Below are positions 33,170 to 40,002 of a stretch of DNA of 64,000 bases, piece by piece. Every line of letters starts with the position of its first letter. Positions within the stretch are counted from its first letter, which is position 1. Both the position numbers and the translations under genes were made by a program. Source of the DNA: Halococcus qingdaonensis (GTDB taxonomy: Archaea > Halobacteriota > Halobacteria > Halobacteriales > Halococcaceae); assembly GCF_024508235.1 (NCBI RefSeq), contig NZ_CP101943.1:558001-622000 (forward strand), read 5' to 3'. The notes under the pieces were generated by a model. That model saw only the letters and a program-made list of their open reading frames with translations, made no database searches and was not told where the DNA came from.

Positions 33170-33202
33170 TTCTCAGGTCGGGGTTCCGCCTGCCAAAGCA
33201 CA

Positions 33203-33469
33203 CTACAGCGCGAGCGGAACGGTATCGACGATCCAGTCGAACAGGCCGGCGAGAAACGTTGCGAGGAGTAGATAGGTGAACACGACGAGCGTGTTCCGGC
33301 GGGGTGCTCGCTTCCGAATGCCGGGGAGTCGCGAGATCGCGCGAACGACCGTCATCGACGGAGTGCGGTCGGCATCACTGTCGTCGATCGATTCGCGTGG
33401 GCGATCCGAAACCGTGTTGCCGTCTCCTCGGCGGCAGGCGGTCGTCGTGACCGTCCGAACGAGATACAT
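33203..33469 (-). CDS. small C-terminally anchored membrane protein
   Basis: 88 residues, start ATG at 33469 overlapping the TGA of the upstream DUF7344-type gene (ATGA). Residues 1-60 are basic and polar (MYLVRTVTTTACRRGDGNTV, RPRESIDDSDADRTPS). Residues about 63-80 form one membrane helix (TLVVFTYLLLATFLAGLFDW), leaving a short outer tail ending DTVPLAL. No family is recognised. Coupling suggests it works with the preceding membrane-bound winged-helix protein. Confidence 0.6.
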   Translation of the reverse strand: MYLVRTVTTTACRRGDGNTVSDRPRESIDDSDADRTPSMTVVRAISRLPGIRKRAPRRNTLVVFTYLLLATFLAGLFDWIVDTVPLAL

Positions 33470-34101
33470 CAGCGCTCCGGCGCGTCCGGTGGCGTGTCGG
33501 CCGCACCGAGCTGCATCCGTCGGTCGTAGTAGCTGTGGACGAGCGCCGAGACGAAGACGACGCCAGCGACGAGTGCGGCCCACGTCAGCTCGGGCATCAG
33601 CTCGAAGCCGGTGAGCCAGACGCCCCCGACGCCCGCGAGCGCCATCGCCGACAGGCCGAGGTAGTACCGACTCCACGGGATGTCGTCCTCGCCGACGACA
33701 TCGAGATAGACGTCGAGGCCGTCGGCCGCGTCAGTGAGCGAGACGGTACCCCGTGCGTCGTCGAACTCGATGACGCCTGCAGCGTCCATTTTCGGCAGAT
33801 GGAACTGCTGGAGGGCGGTGTAGACGCGCTTTCGCTCGGCGGCGCTGAGATCGACTTGCGGGACGCCGTTCTCCCATGCGGCGACCTGCTCGGCGAGGTC
33901 ACCGATGTTCGCCGTTCGCTCGTGCTGTTTGAGCGAGTGCAGCGCGTACCGTCGGCGGTGGTTGCTCAGTACATCGAAGAGCGCATCCCGTGAGAGATTC
34001 TGGCCACTCCGATCGTTCTCGTCCGCCCCCACCGGCTCCACCGACGGCTGTCCGTCGGTCACGTCCGGTTCGGCCGGGGGGTCGCTCGTGGCCGTGCCCA
34101 T
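33469..34101 (-). CDS. DUF7344-type winged-helix protein with two membrane helices
   Basis: 210 residues from the ATG at 34101. An acidic, disordered N-terminus to about 35 precedes the winged helix: SRDALFDVLSNHRRRYALHS, LAEQVAAWENGVPQVDLSAA, ERKRVYTALQQFHLPKMDAA and GVIEFDDARGTVSL. This is the domain haloarchaea carry in many copies (DUF7344). Two membrane helices follow (about 143-162, 168-187). A membrane-tethered DNA-binding protein is thus predicted. A TATA-like sequence lies about 27 bp upstream. It is coupled to the small membrane protein behind it. Confidence 0.82.
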   Translation of the reverse strand: MGTATSDPPAEPDVTDGQPSVEPVGADENDRSGQNLSRDALFDVLSNHRRRYALHSLKQHERTANIGDLAEQVAAWENGVPQVDLSAAERKRVYTALQQFHLPKMDAAGVIEFDDARGTVSLTDAADGLDVYLDVVGEDDIPWSRYYLGLSAMALAGVGGVWLTGFELMPELTWAALVAGVVFVSALVHSYYDRRMQLGAADTPPDAPER

Positions 34102-34209
34102 GTCTATCTTGTTGGATTCAGTATTAGTGTACTTCCTGCACAGCGTGCAAGGGCTGCACACCGGCTGTGCGTGGCCTTCTCTGTTGGAGAGTGATTTCTC
34201 GATGGACGT

Positions 34210-34989
34210 TTACGATACGCTGAACCCGTCGGCGTGGCGTTTGTAGCTGCGATACCGCTCCAACGCCCACTCACGCACCGTTTCGTTGGTCGTCTCCAGC
34301 AGCGCACGCGGTTCATCATCCTCGGCAACGACGATCTGTACTGTGTCGTCGAACACTCCGAGCGAGTACGGCAACGTTCCGTCGTAGGCGAACAGTTCGA
34401 GTCGCTCGGTTGCCACCATTTCTCTCAATAGCTCGGCGTATTCCTGGGCCGAACAGTAGAGATCCGCGATATCCGGCTCGACGACGAGCTCGCCCTCCGC
34501 GCCGTTTCCGACGATCTGCTCGTTCGCTGCCTCCGTTGCGTGCAGTCCGGTAAACGGGAGCACGACCCGATACCACTCCGTTTCCTTGATGAGCTGCACC
34601 TGCTTGTTGATCATCGCGTACGGATCGCCAGGCTGTGCCAGCGTGATTTTCGACTCCGCGAGCAGCGAGAGATCGAGGTCGAGCGTGTCGTCGGGAACCC
34701 ACCGCATGAACGATCGCAGTTTGTCCGTGAGCTCCACTTCGCTCACGAGATCGGCGAACGCCTCCGCGACCAGCTTGCCCTGCCGGGTGATCGTACACGT
34801 CCCGTTCGTCCGACTGATCCAGCCCTGCTCTTCGAGTGCGTCGAGGTTCCGCCCGATCGTCGTCCGCGAGGCATCGATTCGATCTCCGAGTACGTGTTTT
34901 TCGAGCGTGCCGTTCTCGCACAGCAGATCGAGGATCCGTACGCGATGCTCCGACCGTGCGAGCAGTTCGATGGTGTCGATTGCACTCAT
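34210..34989 (-). CDS. helix-turn-helix regulator with FilR1-type sensor domain
   Basis: 259 residues. The N-terminal winged helix is SEHRVRILDLLCENGTLEKH, then DRIDASRTTIGRNLDALEEQ and GWISRTNGTCTITRQGKLVA. The C-terminal 150 residues (MINKQVQLIKETEWYRVVLP, ELLREMVATERLELFAYDGT, LPYSLGVFDDTVQIVVAEDD) match the FilR1 middle-domain type of archaeal regulators. It stands head-to-head with the SipW export operon across 348 bp that contain a phased repeat, so it is a candidate regulator of that operon. The ligand is unknown. Confidence 0.85.
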   Translation of the reverse strand: MSAIDTIELLARSEHRVRILDLLCENGTLEKHVLGDRIDASRTTIGRNLDALEEQGWISRTNGTCTITRQGKLVAEAFADLVSEVELTDKLRSFMRWVPDDTLDLDLSLLAESKITLAQPGDPYAMINKQVQLIKETEWYRVVLPFTGLHATEAANEQIVGNGAEGELVVEPDIADLYCSAQEYAELLREMVATERLELFAYDGTLPYSLGVFDDTVQIVVAEDDEPRALLETTNETVREWALERYRSYKRHADGFSVS

Positions 34990-35337
34990 ATATCAATACG
35001 AAACACGGTATCACTTAGATTTGGACTCTAGCCAACTAGATCTCGCCGATCTGTTCCGGCAACGCTCCTCGTGAGTATTGATGCCCGTTTGGCTGTCGGT
35101 ACCCCTGATTCAGGCCGTCTGTACTGCTCTTCAGGCTCCCTTTACCACCGTTCAGGCCGCGTTTGCGCCGCTTCAAGCGGTGCCTGCGATTTGTTCAGGC
35201 AGCGTGATACAATGGAGGTATGGCTCATGGCCTCAGGTAGCGCGCCACGCTGCATCGATGTCGATGTTCGCGGGGCGTGCGGCGACGGCGGACGATGGTC
35301 CCCGCTGATGGGGAACGGAACACGGAGATCCAAGACA
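34990..35337. other. intergenic region between regulator and export operon
   Basis: 348 bp with no convincing gene. It holds the promoter of the FilR1-type regulator near 35012-35020 on the minus strand and the five-unit TTCAGGC repeat at 35109-35200. About 140 bp follow up to the first TasA-like ATG at 35338. A 76-codon frame (35078-35308) crosses the repeat but has no recognisable similarity. Confidence 0.6.
35109..35200 (+). repeat. five-unit phased direct repeat TTCAGGC, 21-bp period
   Basis: TTCAGGC occurs at 35109, 35130, 35151 and 35194, with TTCAAGC at 35172, giving steps of 21, 21, 21 and 22 bp. The steps equal two helical turns, so all copies face the same side of DNA. The spacers are only loosely alike (a T/C-rich middle and CC near the end). 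It lies between a regulator gene and the secretion operon it may control. Confidence 0.8.
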
Positions 35338-36138
35338 ATGGCAGACGACAACGACAAATCACCGCTAACCCGGCGACGGGTGCTCGGCGGCATGGCAACG
35401 ATCGGTGCGGCGGGCGCGCTCGGAGCGGGCTCGTGGGCCGCGTTTAGTGACGAATCACAGACGCTGGATGCGACGTTGGAGGCTGGCGAACTCGACGGTT
35501 CGACTACCTTCACCGGGAGCTACAACGACAACGACATCAGTAACAGTCTCACGAACGTGGAAGTGTCTGGCGAGGGCGAGGGCGTCGAGGTCACACTGTC
35601 CGATATCAAGCCAGGCGACTACGGCTCGGTCACGCTCGACATCTCACTCCAAGGCAACCCCGCATGGGTTGCATCCTGCCTCGACATTACTAACGAGGAT
35701 GGTAAGCTAGATAATAAGATTCAGACCATCCCGTTCTACTCGCCGAGCAATACAAACTCGTTCTTCGATATCGACGGCCCTGACTCCGACTGGAATGGGT
35801 CGATGGGCAAGTATTCCAACGGGACGTCGGAGGCGTTCTGGAACAGCCGCGAAGGAGCAAATGACTTCGATCAGCTTCGGCCACTAACGCTCAAGCAAGC
35901 AGCACGCCAGAGCGCAGCTGAAACGATAAACTGGAACAACCCGAATCAGTCGCCTCCAGCAGATACCGAAGTCGACGATGGCTGCATCCTCCTGTCGGGT
36001 GATCTCGCGAAAGATGACACGGACCACGATCCACAGGATGCGGTGCCGCTATACGGGGGGGGGGGGACAACCTCAGATTCGGTTACGACTGGCATCTTCC
36101 GTACACAGTCGGAAATGAGGTACAGAACGACAGCGTGA
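35338..36138 (+). CDS. TasA/camelysin-like SipW-dependent secreted protein, frameshifted at a poly-G tract
   Basis: 266 residues as sequenced. Its twin-arginine-like signal TRRRVLGGMATIGAAGALGA is followed by GSWAAFSDESQTLDATLEAG, the ATFSD-type start of SipW-dependent (TasA/camelysin) proteins, and then a secreted beta-sandwich. At 36055-36066 a run of 12 G shifts the frame, giving the short tail TTSDSVTTGIFRTQSEMRYR. The neighbouring frame instead reads DNLRFGYDWHLPYTVGNEVQ and NDSVTISLGTVFKQYRH to a TGA at 36234-36236, the expected family C-terminus. A tract of 10 or 13 G would restore a product of about 299 residues. Confidence 0.8.
   Translation: MADDNDKSPLTRRRVLGGMATIGAAGALGAGSWAAFSDESQTLDATLEAGELDGSTTFTGSYNDNDISNSLTNVEVSGEGEGVEVTLSDIKPGDYGSVTLDISLQGNPAWVASCLDITNEDGKLDNKIQTIPFYSPSNTNSFFDIDGPDSDWNGSMGKYSNGTSEAFWNSREGANDFDQLRPLTLKQAARQSAAETINWNNPNQSPPADTEVDDGCILLSGDLAKDDTDHDPQDAVPLYGGGGTTSDSVTTGIFRTQSEMRYRTTA
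36055..36066 (+). repeat. homopolymeric G12 tract
   Basis: Twelve consecutive G inside the TasA-like gene, at the exact point where the reading frame leaves the conserved C-terminus. Such tracts slip during replication, so the gene may switch between long and short forms. An assembly or sequencing error in a homopolymer is the main alternative. Confidence 0.85.
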
Positions 36139-36337
36139 CAATCAGTCTCGGGACCGTGTTCAAGCAATACCGTCACTCTGAGGGACCGTACATGCCGAAC
36201 ACCTTCGCTCCCGGGAACAACACACCGAACCCCTGACCTGACGGCAATGACAGACTGGCGACCGCACAGCGCGCTGCCAGCCCCACTGGCAGTCGAAACG
36301 CTCCCGGCGCGCGATTTTTCGAAACAACAGATCACAG

Positions 36338-37024
36338 ATGACCGATGAAACCACACGACGACGCGTACTGACGGCGATCGCCACCGCTGGCGGGATCGGC
36401 GCGCTCGGGGGTGCCGGCACGTACGCAGTCTTCAGCGACACCGCGAGCACGAAAGCGACGTTCACGAGCGGATCGCTCGACTTGCGTGTTCATTACGACA
36501 GGACATACGTGGGTACTGAAGAACAAACGGATTCGGGCACTATCGACGGTCAGGAATCGACCGAGTTACCCGGTTATAGCAACCTCATGGCCGGTGACTC
36601 CGGGCAACTGAAGTTCTGCTTCGAGCTCGCCAAAAACTCGGCGTACCTCTGGACTTGTGGCGAGTTGACTACCAGTAGCGATCTCGCGGATGCGATAGAG
36701 GCCACGGTTCGCTACTGCGATCAGGACGGGACGAAGGGGAATCCCATCGGTGAGCAGAATCGGAGCCTCAGTAGTGTGTTCTCGGCACTCAACGATGGTG
36801 TTCCGCTCGATTACAAGGGCCGGGATCGCGATGCAGGCAAACAGACTGCGTACGAGCCGAGTTCGTCGGGCGAGACTATCGGACCGTGTCTCTGCATCGA
36901 CTGGAAACTTCCTGACGATACCGACGCCACGGTTCAGAACAAGGAGTTCGGATTCAATCTCCGATTCCACGCGATGCAGGCCCGTCACCACGACGGGACG
37001 AACAATCCGTGCACCGGTGACTGA
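36338..37024 (+). CDS. second TasA/camelysin-like SipW-dependent secreted protein
   Basis: 228 residues. The N-terminus ETTRRRVLTAIATAGGIGAL is followed by GGAGTYAVFSDTASTKATFT, the family cleavage region and first strand. The mature part is cysteine-containing (KFCFELAK, LWTCGELT, RYCDQDG, PCLCIDW), unlike its upstream paralogue, so disulfides or metal binding are possible. It ends FHAMQARHHDGTNNPCTGD. It lies about 100 bp after the restored stop of the first gene and 108 bp before the signal peptidase, consistent with one operon. It may form surface fibres or a coat; this is inference from the Bacillus TasA family. Confidence 0.85.
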   Translation: MTDETTRRRVLTAIATAGGIGALGGAGTYAVFSDTASTKATFTSGSLDLRVHYDRTYVGTEEQTDSGTIDGQESTELPGYSNLMAGDSGQLKFCFELAKNSAYLWTCGELTTSSDLADAIEATVRYCDQDGTKGNPIGEQNRSLSSVFSALNDGVPLDYKGRDRDAGKQTAYEPSSSGETIGPCLCIDWKLPDDTDATVQNKEFGFNLRFHAMQARHHDGTNNPCTGD

Positions 37025-37132
37025 AACAGCGATATTGATTGTGATGATGACACCGATACAAACGACGAAGCTTGAACGAACTCGGCGATCGCGATCCACA
37101 GGACAGCAATCTGGGAGACGGGAACCACGATC

Positions 37133-37687
37133 ATGAACACGCCTGATCGCGGGACGATCCTGCGGTTTGTCGTACTGATCGTGTTGATCGCACTAGTCGT
37201 CCCGTTTGCCCTTTACGCCGTACCGAATGCTGTCGGCGCAGACCACAGCTACGTCGTCCTCTCGGGGAGCATGGAACCGACGATTTCGACGGGCGATGCC
37301 ATCCTCGTGGCCGAACAGTCACCGGAATCTATCGAGCGCGGTGACATCATCACATTTGCCACCGAAGACGAGCCAACTCCAACAACTCACCGTGTCGTTG
37401 AAATCATCCAGATGGACGAGGGTCGAGAGTTCGTTACGAAGGGTGATGCAAACGAGAACCGAGACCCGCAACAAGTATCCGACAGGAATGTCATCGGGAC
37501 ATTCGCGTTCTCGATTCCATTCATCGGGTACGTGATCAAGTTCGCAGGCACCCAGATGGGATTTCTCGCGCTGGTCGGGATACCACTCGGGCTACTGATA
37601 CTCGGGGAGCTCTACGATCTCGCGGCCGCGGCGCGAAGCACACCGACCGAGACCGATGGGCCGGCAGACGCAAACTCGGAGGATTGA
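37133..37687 (+). CDS. sipW: SipW-type signal peptidase I
   Basis: 184 residues with membrane helices at about 10-30 and 145-167. The catalytic Ser is in VVLSGSMEPTISTGDAILVA (Ser46), and instead of the bacterial Lys there is the ER/archaeal-type His in PTTHRVVEI (about residue 86). An Asp lies in the later GDANENRDPQQVS. SipW-class enzymes process TasA-like substrates outside the membrane, and two such substrates lie directly upstream. Its TGA overlaps the ATG of the next gene. Confidence 0.92.
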   Translation: MNTPDRGTILRFVVLIVLIALVVPFALYAVPNAVGADHSYVVLSGSMEPTISTGDAILVAEQSPESIERGDIITFATEDEPTPTTHRVVEIIQMDEGREFVTKGDANENRDPQQVSDRNVIGTFAFSIPFIGYVIKFAGTQMGFLALVGIPLGLLILGELYDLAAAARSTPTETDGPADANSED

Positions 37688-38130
37688 TGATGGAACGAAC
37701 TCGACTCATTACGGTTGTCGCGGTGTGCGCTATCGCCATCGCAGGTGCCGGCGGCGGTGCCGTTACCTATGCCCAACTTGGAGATTCGGCAGCTGGCGAA
37801 GTTTCCTTCTCTTCTGGGACATGGAACACCACTGCGAACACGACAACGACTCCAAACGAAACAAATACGACGGCAAACGGAACGGAGACTATGATGGAGT
37901 CCAGTGTGACTACAAATTCCACCACGACCTCGGTATCGATGACTACCGAACCAAACGTGACGGATACGCCTACAGAGGCGAGATCGAACACGACCGCCCT
38001 CACGACGGTGACGCCGTCGACGACTGAGACTACGGGGACGCCCACGTCCACATCTGAAACGACAACCGACGGGACGACGGCCGAAACCACGACGGCCGAG
38101 ACGACAACGACGAACGGGACGGCAACTTGA
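37687..38130 (+). CDS. Thr-rich, probably heavily glycosylated secreted protein
   Basis: 147 residues. A signal or anchor helix [20 protein letters not shown] is followed by the TasA-like start [20 protein letters not shown]. About 95 residues then consist mostly of Thr, Ser, Asn and Glu, with many N-x-T sequons (NTT, NET, NGT, NST, NVT) and [12 protein letters not shown] repeats near the end. A mucin-like glycosylated stalk outside the cell is likely. Start at 37687 overlaps the signal-peptidase stop (ATGA), linking it to the operon as a possible third SipW substrate. Confidence 0.75.
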
Positions 38131-38184
38131 ACCACCGGGCATAGCCGCAGACGAGTTTAGACACGCTGCGGGCTACCACGAACC

Positions 38185-39879
38185 ATGCCCGACGCCGCGC
38201 CGTGGTTCGACGAGTACGAACAGTTCGGCATCCCCGAGACCCTCGAACCGTATCCCGACGAGCCGGCTCACGCTTTTCTCTACGAGAGCGCCGACGCCCA
38301 TCCCGAGCAGGGGCTGGTCCAGCTCGGCGAGAAAGTCACATACCCTGAGCTCGCCGAACAGGTCGACAGGCTGGCGAGCGCGCTCACGGACCGCGGCGTC
38401 GGGACGGGCGATCGCGTGGCGACCATCCTGCCGACCTCGATCCAGTTCGTGCTCGCCGACTACGCGATCTCGCGGGCCGGCGGCGTCCACATCCCGAACG
38501 ACGTTCTCGACGCCGACGACGACCTGCGCTATCGTCTCGAACAGGGCAATCCGGAAGTGCTCATCGGCCAGGACGACCACCGCGAGCTGCTGTGTTCGCT
38601 CCGCGACGACCTCGACATCGACCATCTGATGCTTACCGATATCGAAGACTATTCCGACGATCCGCCGACCGATCATGACGACGTCGCTGGTGCCGAATGG
38701 CTACCCGACGTGATCGAAAACGCTGACGACGCGCCGCCCGCTATCGACTTCGATCCCGAGGAGGACGTCCATACACTGCTGTTCACCGGCGGCACCACCG
38801 GCCGGCCGAAGGGCTGTCTGCTCACCCATCGCAACGTCACCGCGAACGCCCTCCAGGCGACGGCGAACATGAGTCGGATGGCACAGCTGATGCGCGGCGG
38901 CGAGACGGCGCTGATGGCGCTGCCGCTCTATCACGCCTACGGGTATTCGGTACTGCACTCGCTGATCGAACTCGGACTCGACGTGCTCACGGTCCCCGAC
39001 GCGCGCGATACGGGGACGATGCGCGATCTCATCGAGACACACGATCCGGTGATCATGATGGGCGTGCCCACCCAGTTCATGGAGATCGTCGACGAGGAAC
39101 TGGGACAGGATATCATCGGCATCTCGGGATCGGCACCGCTGGCGAGCGAGACGAAGGACGCCTTCGCCGAGCAGAGCACGGGCGTTTCACAGGGCTACGG
39201 ACTCTCAGAAATGTCGCCGATCACGCATTTCAACACGCGTGGGTTGCTCGACATGATGACCGGCGGCAGCTCCGACGATGGCGGGTTCGACCAGCCGACC
39301 ATCGGCGTGCCGGTGCCCGACACAGAGGTGAAGCTCGTCGACATCGACTCCGGCGAACCGATCCCGCTCGACGAGGCCATCGATGACGAGCGCGAGGGCG
39401 AGCTGTATCTCAACGGTCCGCAGCGCATGCAGGGCTATCTCGATGCCGACAAACAGCCCTTCGACGACGAGGGGTTCGTGAGCACCGGCGACGTGGCCAG
39501 GATCGACGAAAGCGGCCGGTTCTACGTGGTCGATCGCGTGAAGGACATGATCAACGTCTCCGGGCTGAAGGTCTACTCCGAGGAGATCGACGAGGAGCTG
39601 TTCGGCCATCCGGGCGTCAAGCGCCCGGCAACGGTCGGGGTTCCCGATCCCGAGCGACCGGGCAGTGAGCGCGTGAAAGTCTACGTCGAGCCCGATCCCG
39701 ACTACGACGGCGATCTCACGGAAGGAGGGATCGTCGACTATCTGGAAGATCGTGTCGCAAAGCATGCCGTGCCCGACCAGGTCGAGTTCGTCGAGCACGT
39801 TCCGCTGACGGATATCGGCAAGACGGACAAGAAGGCGTTGCGCGAGCGCACCGAGCCGGCGACCGAGGCCGCCGAGTAG
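38185..39879 (+). CDS. AMP-binding acyl-CoA synthetase (fatty-acid ligase-like)
   Basis: 564 residues of the adenylate-forming superfamily. Motif A5-like LLFTGGTTGRPKGCLLTHRN (about 198-217) binds the ATP phosphates; LPLYHAYGYS, QGYGLSEMSPITHF, STGDVARIDESG and the hinge with VDRVKDMINVSGLKVY follow. The C-terminal catalytic Lys region is near DIGKTDKKALRE. It activates a carboxylic acid, probably a fatty acid, to its CoA thioester. A TATA-like TTTAGA about 28 bp upstream separates it from the export operon. Confidence 0.9.
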   Translation: MPDAAPWFDEYEQFGIPETLEPYPDEPAHAFLYESADAHPEQGLVQLGEKVTYPELAEQVDRLASALTDRGVGTGDRVATILPTSIQFVLADYAISRAGGVHIPNDVLDADDDLRYRLEQGNPEVLIGQDDHRELLCSLRDDLDIDHLMLTDIEDYSDDPPTDHDDVAGAEWLPDVIENADDAPPAIDFDPEEDVHTLLFTGGTTGRPKGCLLTHRNVTANALQATANMSRMAQLMRGGETALMALPLYHAYGYSVLHSLIELGLDVLTVPDARDTGTMRDLIETHDPVIMMGVPTQFMEIVDEELGQDIIGISGSAPLASETKDAFAEQSTGVSQGYGLSEMSPITHFNTRGLLDMMTGGSSDDGGFDQPTIGVPVPDTEVKLVDIDSGEPIPLDEAIDDEREGELYLNGPQRMQGYLDADKQPFDDEGFVSTGDVARIDESGRFYVVDRVKDMINVSGLKVYSEEIDEELFGHPGVKRPATVGVPDPERPGSERVKVYVEPDPDYDGDLTEGGIVDYLEDRVAKHAVPDQVEFVEHVPLTDIGKTDKKALRERTEPATEAAE

Positions 39880-40002
39880 TCCGCAGTGCCATTGCCTCCT
39901 GTCGGTCGTCGAGGGAAGGGTCTGGGGACGGACATGGAGGGTAGCAGAACGGGGAACATCGGCGGCACAATGCATTTGACCGAACGTCCCCTACGAGGGG
40001 GT

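Follow-up and report, generated by a model that had tools for sequence, protein, structure and literature searches.

A candidate poly-G contingency locus in a TasA-like surface-protein gene of the archaeon Halococcus qingdaonensis

Poly-G contingency loci are classic elements of bacterial genomes, and homopolymer phase variation has been documented almost wholly in Bacteria, where such tracts change length at rates of roughly 1e-4 to 1e-2 per generation. The locus described here, in the haloarchaeon H. qingdaonensis, resembles the poly-G/poly-C loci of Neisseria (hmbR and hpuA) and of Campylobacter surface genes in several respects: a G tract above the slippage threshold lies within a gene, one-base changes in its length switch the reading frame, the target is related to the cell surface, and the tract is an outlier in the run-length distribution of its genome. 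However, it differs from the bacterial loci in its archaeal host, in concerning one gene rather than a set, in lying in the last fifth of the gene, away from the 5´ end, and in not being conserved among relatives, and it is known from a single genome assembly.

Across 99 prokaryotic genomes, 18 of which were archaeal, it was mainly poly-A/T tracts that proved overrepresented in a homopolymer survey (PMC2831843). In Halobacterium, one-base differences in poly-C/G tracts, comparable to the present case as one-base changes in G/C tracts of haloarchaeal genes, have been attributed to sequencing error (PMC11834397). A sequence-only reading of this locus had described homopolymer phase variation as little known in archaea. 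A 2025 review mentions archaea only as a place where the distribution of phase variation awaits mapping (PMC11868660), and a search of the open-access literature for archaeal phase variation by fixed phrases found no paper. The kind of system is known; its demonstration in an archaeon would be new. As a clean candidate at a hypervariable surface-protein locus of a culturable genus, the tract makes the question directly testable.

The window analysed comprises 64,000 nucleotides (G000:C1:558001-622000) of a genome assembled as a single contig of 2.70 Mb. The homopolymer at 36055-36066 of the window (+ strand) consists of exactly 12 G (G12). With this number of G, the frame opened by the ATG at 35338 encodes a secreted TasA-like protein of 266 amino acids (P0002, 35338-36138, + strand), with an N-terminal RR/SipW-type signal peptide, a C-terminal end that reads GGGGTTSDSVTTGIFRTQSEMRYRTTA and a stop codon at 36136-36138. 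The conserved C-terminus of the family, which begins FGYDWHLPYTVGNEVQND and includes the motif GNExQxD, is found in the -1 frame (P0003, 36066-36236, + strand), where 56 amino acids reading DNLRFGYDWHLPYTVGNEVQNDSVTISLGTVFKQYRHSEGPYMPNTFAPGNNTPNP are followed by a TGA at 36234-36236. The 12-G product carries 23 unrelated residues after the tract, including the peptide TQSEMR, while a tract of 10 or 13 G would join the -1 frame and give a full-length protein whose peptides include FGYDWHLPYTVGNEVQNDSVTISLGTVFK. Both earlier claims on the frame, that G12 displaces the conserved C-terminus and that one more or two fewer G would restore it up to the TGA at 36234, are thus confirmed. Frame analysis and homology indicate that a change in tract length would toggle the gene between the full-length conserved protein and a disrupted product.

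The displaced segment is homologous to the ends of two related proteins, with 45% identity over 51 amino acids to the intact H. thailandensis orthologue (E 1e-12) and 57% identity over 49 amino acids to a Halorubrum homologue (E 1e-20). In the GNExQxD motif, 16 aligned homologues show little or no variation at N, Q and D. Without recourse to homology, a codon model places the coding phase differently before and after the tract, with the -1 phase following it, and the GC content at the three codon positions (GC1/2/3) is 0.57/0.44/0.69 in the gene body before the tract and, only in the -1 frame, 0.51/0.42/0.70 after it. The identity to the Halorubrum homologue, combined with the codon GC profile of the gene body, indicates that the segment was coding until recently. 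Moreover, the conserved frame stays open for all 56 codons downstream of the tract, uninterrupted by any second stop or frameshift, which makes the break a recent or intermittent one.

Long G or C runs are exceptional in this genome. In a 384-kb sample, 1670 runs of length 4, 291 of length 5 and 28 of length 6 were counted, followed by none of lengths 7-11 and a single run of 12. A genome-wide search for the longer runs found 14 of at least 7 bases and 8 of at least 10, none being exactly 9 bases long. An order-1 Markov model expects approximately 0.16 runs of at least 12 in 2.7 Mb, and extrapolation of the observed tail approximately 0.0003; these expectations, together with the run-length distribution, rule out a chance run. 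The long tracts thus stand apart from the shorter runs, which is what growth by slippage beyond a threshold length would produce. Of the 8 runs of at least 10 bases, seven lie outside recognisable genes, although coding sequence makes up about 84% of the window; the tract of the window is the only one to interrupt a gene. The tract therefore stands well above the genome background and inside a reading frame, as in phase-variable genes of the SSR poly-G type. Elsewhere in the genome, a perfect G14C15 palindrome follows a T7 run directly upstream of an apparent chorismate synthase gene (L014:4045-4073, G000:C1:2088644-2088672), an unusual element that is hard to sequence.

The second group of described systems to which the gene can be compared is that of the TasA/camelysin proteins (Peptidase_M73), which are exported through SipW. 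The tract gene shares with them a SipW-type signal peptide and a neighbouring SipW-type peptidase gene; its secreted domain is probably beta-rich and may resemble the TasA fibre 8aur weakly in sequence and fold. It differs in falling below the TasA equivalog cut-off and would represent a divergent haloarchaeal branch with a hypervariable body; in the assembled frame, its C-terminus is missing. With the signal-peptide model TIGR04088, P0002 alone scores 15.2 bits (cut-off 19) and the orthologue, which has the same residues 1-38, 32.7 bits. The M73 domain scores 25.6 bits in the orthologue (P0001, cut-off 22.5), with no match in P0002 itself. The orthologue was modelled with AlphaFold at low overall confidence (pLDDT 50); two better-predicted strands, residues 242-250 and 264-274, come immediately after the position of the tract. 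In a Foldseek search with this low-confidence model, 8aur ranked second by E-value (probability 0.85, E 0.016), and a profile search matched it weakly (E 0.06), which are weak hints of a TasA-type fold.

Two further genes of the cluster in which the tract gene lies are found downstream of it. A second TasA-like/camelysin-type secreted protein, intact, is encoded at 36338-37024 (+ strand; PF12389, 27.8 bits, cut-off 22.5; TIGR04088, 29.4 bits, cut-off 19), and a SipW-type/archaeal type I signal peptidase at 37133-37687 (+ strand; TIGR02228, 119.7 bits, cut-off 51.85, E 1e-34), which scores 114 bits against the SipW model NF046067, below its cut-off of 190. It had been claimed that SipW lies beside the gene and processes its product; the peptidase gene is indeed there, and processing is suggested by the neighbourhood and the signal type. 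They are followed by a Thr-rich secreted protein with a weak camelysin-like start (37687-38130, + strand; PF12389, 16.1 bits, below the cut-off), and a divergent HVO_A0261/FilR1-type winged-helix regulator lies on the other side (34210-34989, - strand; PF25213, PF08350).

Comparison with relatives, including Halococcus morrhuae DSM 1307 and H. thailandensis JCM 13552, divides the region sharply. The leader, start codon and signal-peptide segment (35200-35430, + strand) are near-identical in related Halococcus, with 93-98% identity per 100 nt to H. thailandensis and about 95-98% to H. morrhuae, and the ATG is conserved in both species. This leader is present in few relatives, all of them Halococcaceae. 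In the mature body that holds the tract (35440-36250, + strand), only about 55-66% of the DNA positions agree with H. thailandensis, against about 90-99% on either side (the leader, the signal peptide and most downstream genes), and the tract-gene protein is 44% identical to the intact orthologue of that species. In H. morrhuae, the same leader and signal peptide are joined to a different body. To judge from these DNA comparisons, this is a hypervariable surface-protein locus, and the body between its near-identical flanks is possibly a surface-protein cassette that has been exchanged. In the wider comparison of 33200-40000 with the H. thailandensis locus (L051), the body forms an island of low identity that is perhaps more telling than the tract. 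In the H. morrhuae gene, the first 25 codons are duplicated around one N (L053:4890-5080), probably as a scaffolding artefact.

The tract itself was found in none of the homologues examined. At its position the H. thailandensis orthologue reads GEGGKINFGYDW, which holds no homopolymer. For 34 distinct C-termini with the GNExQ motif, G/C runs were measured in the 100 nt ahead of it: the longest has 12 bases in the window and at most 7 in the other 33. The tract is thus peculiar to this allele. A search for closer alleles found none in viral contigs and one distant Halobellus protein in plasmids.

Runs of at least 10 bases were also examined in seven other Halococcus genomes, where with few exceptions they fall outside genes. 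Two tracts lie clearly within coding sequence, each a G10 and each out of frame. One breaks the frame of a gene in genome G004 (L140, G004:C27 about 34766) that is presumably a GT2-like glycosyltransferase, a name read from the sequence, as Pfam gave no match for its pieces; at a distance of 18 kb there is an intact paralogue of 86% identity (L176), which carries GGTGGG at the place of the tract. The other lies in a gene of the enolase superfamily, in the N-domain of a mandelate racemase/muconate lactonizing enzyme (L111:1502-1511, G002:C30). Furthermore, a poly-C tract that separates an NmrA-like gene from a divergent UspA-like gene is C14 in the present genome (L013:4072-4085, G000:C1:1924871-1924884), and its homologue in H. 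morrhuae is C18 (L099:1493-1510), with flanks about 91-92% identical. Such tracts, then, change length between species. H. thailandensis has an intergenic G9 where the window has no such run at the corresponding place. MutS-family homologues are present in all ten genomes searched, so the tracts are not explained simply by a lack of mismatch repair. As a separate observation, the C14/C18 tract lies shortly before the NmrA-like start codon and is a candidate promoter-side length switch.

Taken together, these findings make the tract gene an archaeal candidate for a poly-G contingency locus, and a slippage switch of this TasA-like surface-protein gene is a reading that we advance tentatively, as plausible. 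The tract would have grown from a glycine-rich loop in one allele of a hypervariable, SipW-exported protein and, being longer than about 8-9 bases, would slip when the DNA is replicated. With 12 G, the ribosome would depart from the conserved frame at the tract and add the 23 unrelated residues; the protein would lack the GNExQxD motif and the final strands of its beta domain, giving an OFF state or a defective subunit; the 10- and 13-G states would give the full-length protein and be ON. Populations would be mixed, with and without the surface component, as with bacterial poly-G contingency loci. The rate of slippage, its reversibility and any benefit, such as escape from viruses that use the protein, are what we infer for such a locus.

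The switch reading is supported by the uniqueness of the long intragenic tract, by the displaced C-terminus, whose conservation and codon structure persist, by the secreted-protein setting with its signal peptidase, by the changes in length of long tracts in the genus (C14/C18, and the G9 of H. thailandensis) and by the hypervariable body between near-identical flanks, which is typical of surface proteins under diversifying pressure. Against it stand the absence of the tract in every relative examined, the genus G10 tracts, whose targets fit undirected slippage, the presence of MutS-family homologues, the C-terminal position of the tract and the frequent miscounting of long homopolymers. The earlier proposal of phase variation stands in part: the assembly does contain the tract, which is non-random, is the sole long intragenic one, breaks a conserved C-terminus and lies in a secreted TasA-like gene with a mature part that is hypervariable between close species. 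The missing tract in relatives and the similar breaks in a glycosyltransferase and a metabolic enzyme leave room for ordinary slippage into a null allele or for a one-base miscall. The fuller version of this reading appears somewhat unlikely: a working slipped-strand locus that reversibly toggles a hypervariable SipW-exported TasA-like filament or surface protein and forms, with the similar tracts (the glycosyltransferase in another Halococcus and promoter-side tracts of different length in sister species), a small haloarchaeal phasome.

A serious rival, possible if rather doubtful, is that a chance expansion broke a dispensable, fast-evolving gene, leaving a null allele born of slippage, that is, a young and revertible pseudogene with no selected switch. 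The restriction of the tract to one allele agrees with this, as do the G10 breaks in one glycosyltransferase copy, beside its intact paralogue, and in the enolase-superfamily gene, and the fact that long tracts are otherwise kept out of genes. However, the open frame downstream of the tract shows no decay, and surface proteins and glycosyltransferases are also classic targets of switches. Should the switch reading fail, the locus would still be a good example of G-tract expansion breaking genes in GC-rich haloarchaea.

An equally serious objection in kind, although an unlikely one, is that the long G tract is present with a miscounted length, the true number (such as 10 or 13) being in frame and the gene intact. 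Long homopolymers are the commonest site of indel errors, the Halobacterium differences cited above were judged likely to be such errors, and the displaced tail is intact. On the other hand, coding G7 runs of this assembly are in frame, and coding sequence of the window shows few frameshift differences to H. thailandensis, most of them occurring in clusters or near the ends of genes; these two observations leave a general homopolymer problem of the assembly unsupported, while G12 itself may be miscounted. Even a miscount would leave a long, slippage-prone tract.

Recoding, in which both products would come from one DNA through -1 ribosomal frameshifting or through slippage of transcription at the tract, agrees with the -1 frame of the tail and with the G-GGG-GGG slippery heptamers within G12, but is highly improbable, as the RNA structure downstream is no better than in shuffled sequences (z -0.86 and -0.28) and the homologues examined have neither tract nor frame break, which rejects a conserved recoding site.

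Long poly-G tracts were also noted elsewhere. Two other haloarchaeal genomes, G055 and G070 (L070, L071), have more than 100 poly-G runs each; the loci examined adjoin assembly gaps (N runs), and a phasome was rejected there, the runs being probably artefacts. In G004, an element repeated at two contig ends (L108, L135; 95.6% identity over 227 nt) has the same G12 tract in both copies and is perhaps a mobile element spreading it. Finally, the runs of at least 10 G in contig G107:C1 change strand along its length: every one in the first 0.9 Mb or so is on the + strand, and every one between 1.2 and 1.9 Mb is on the - strand, as if their orientation were set by replication.
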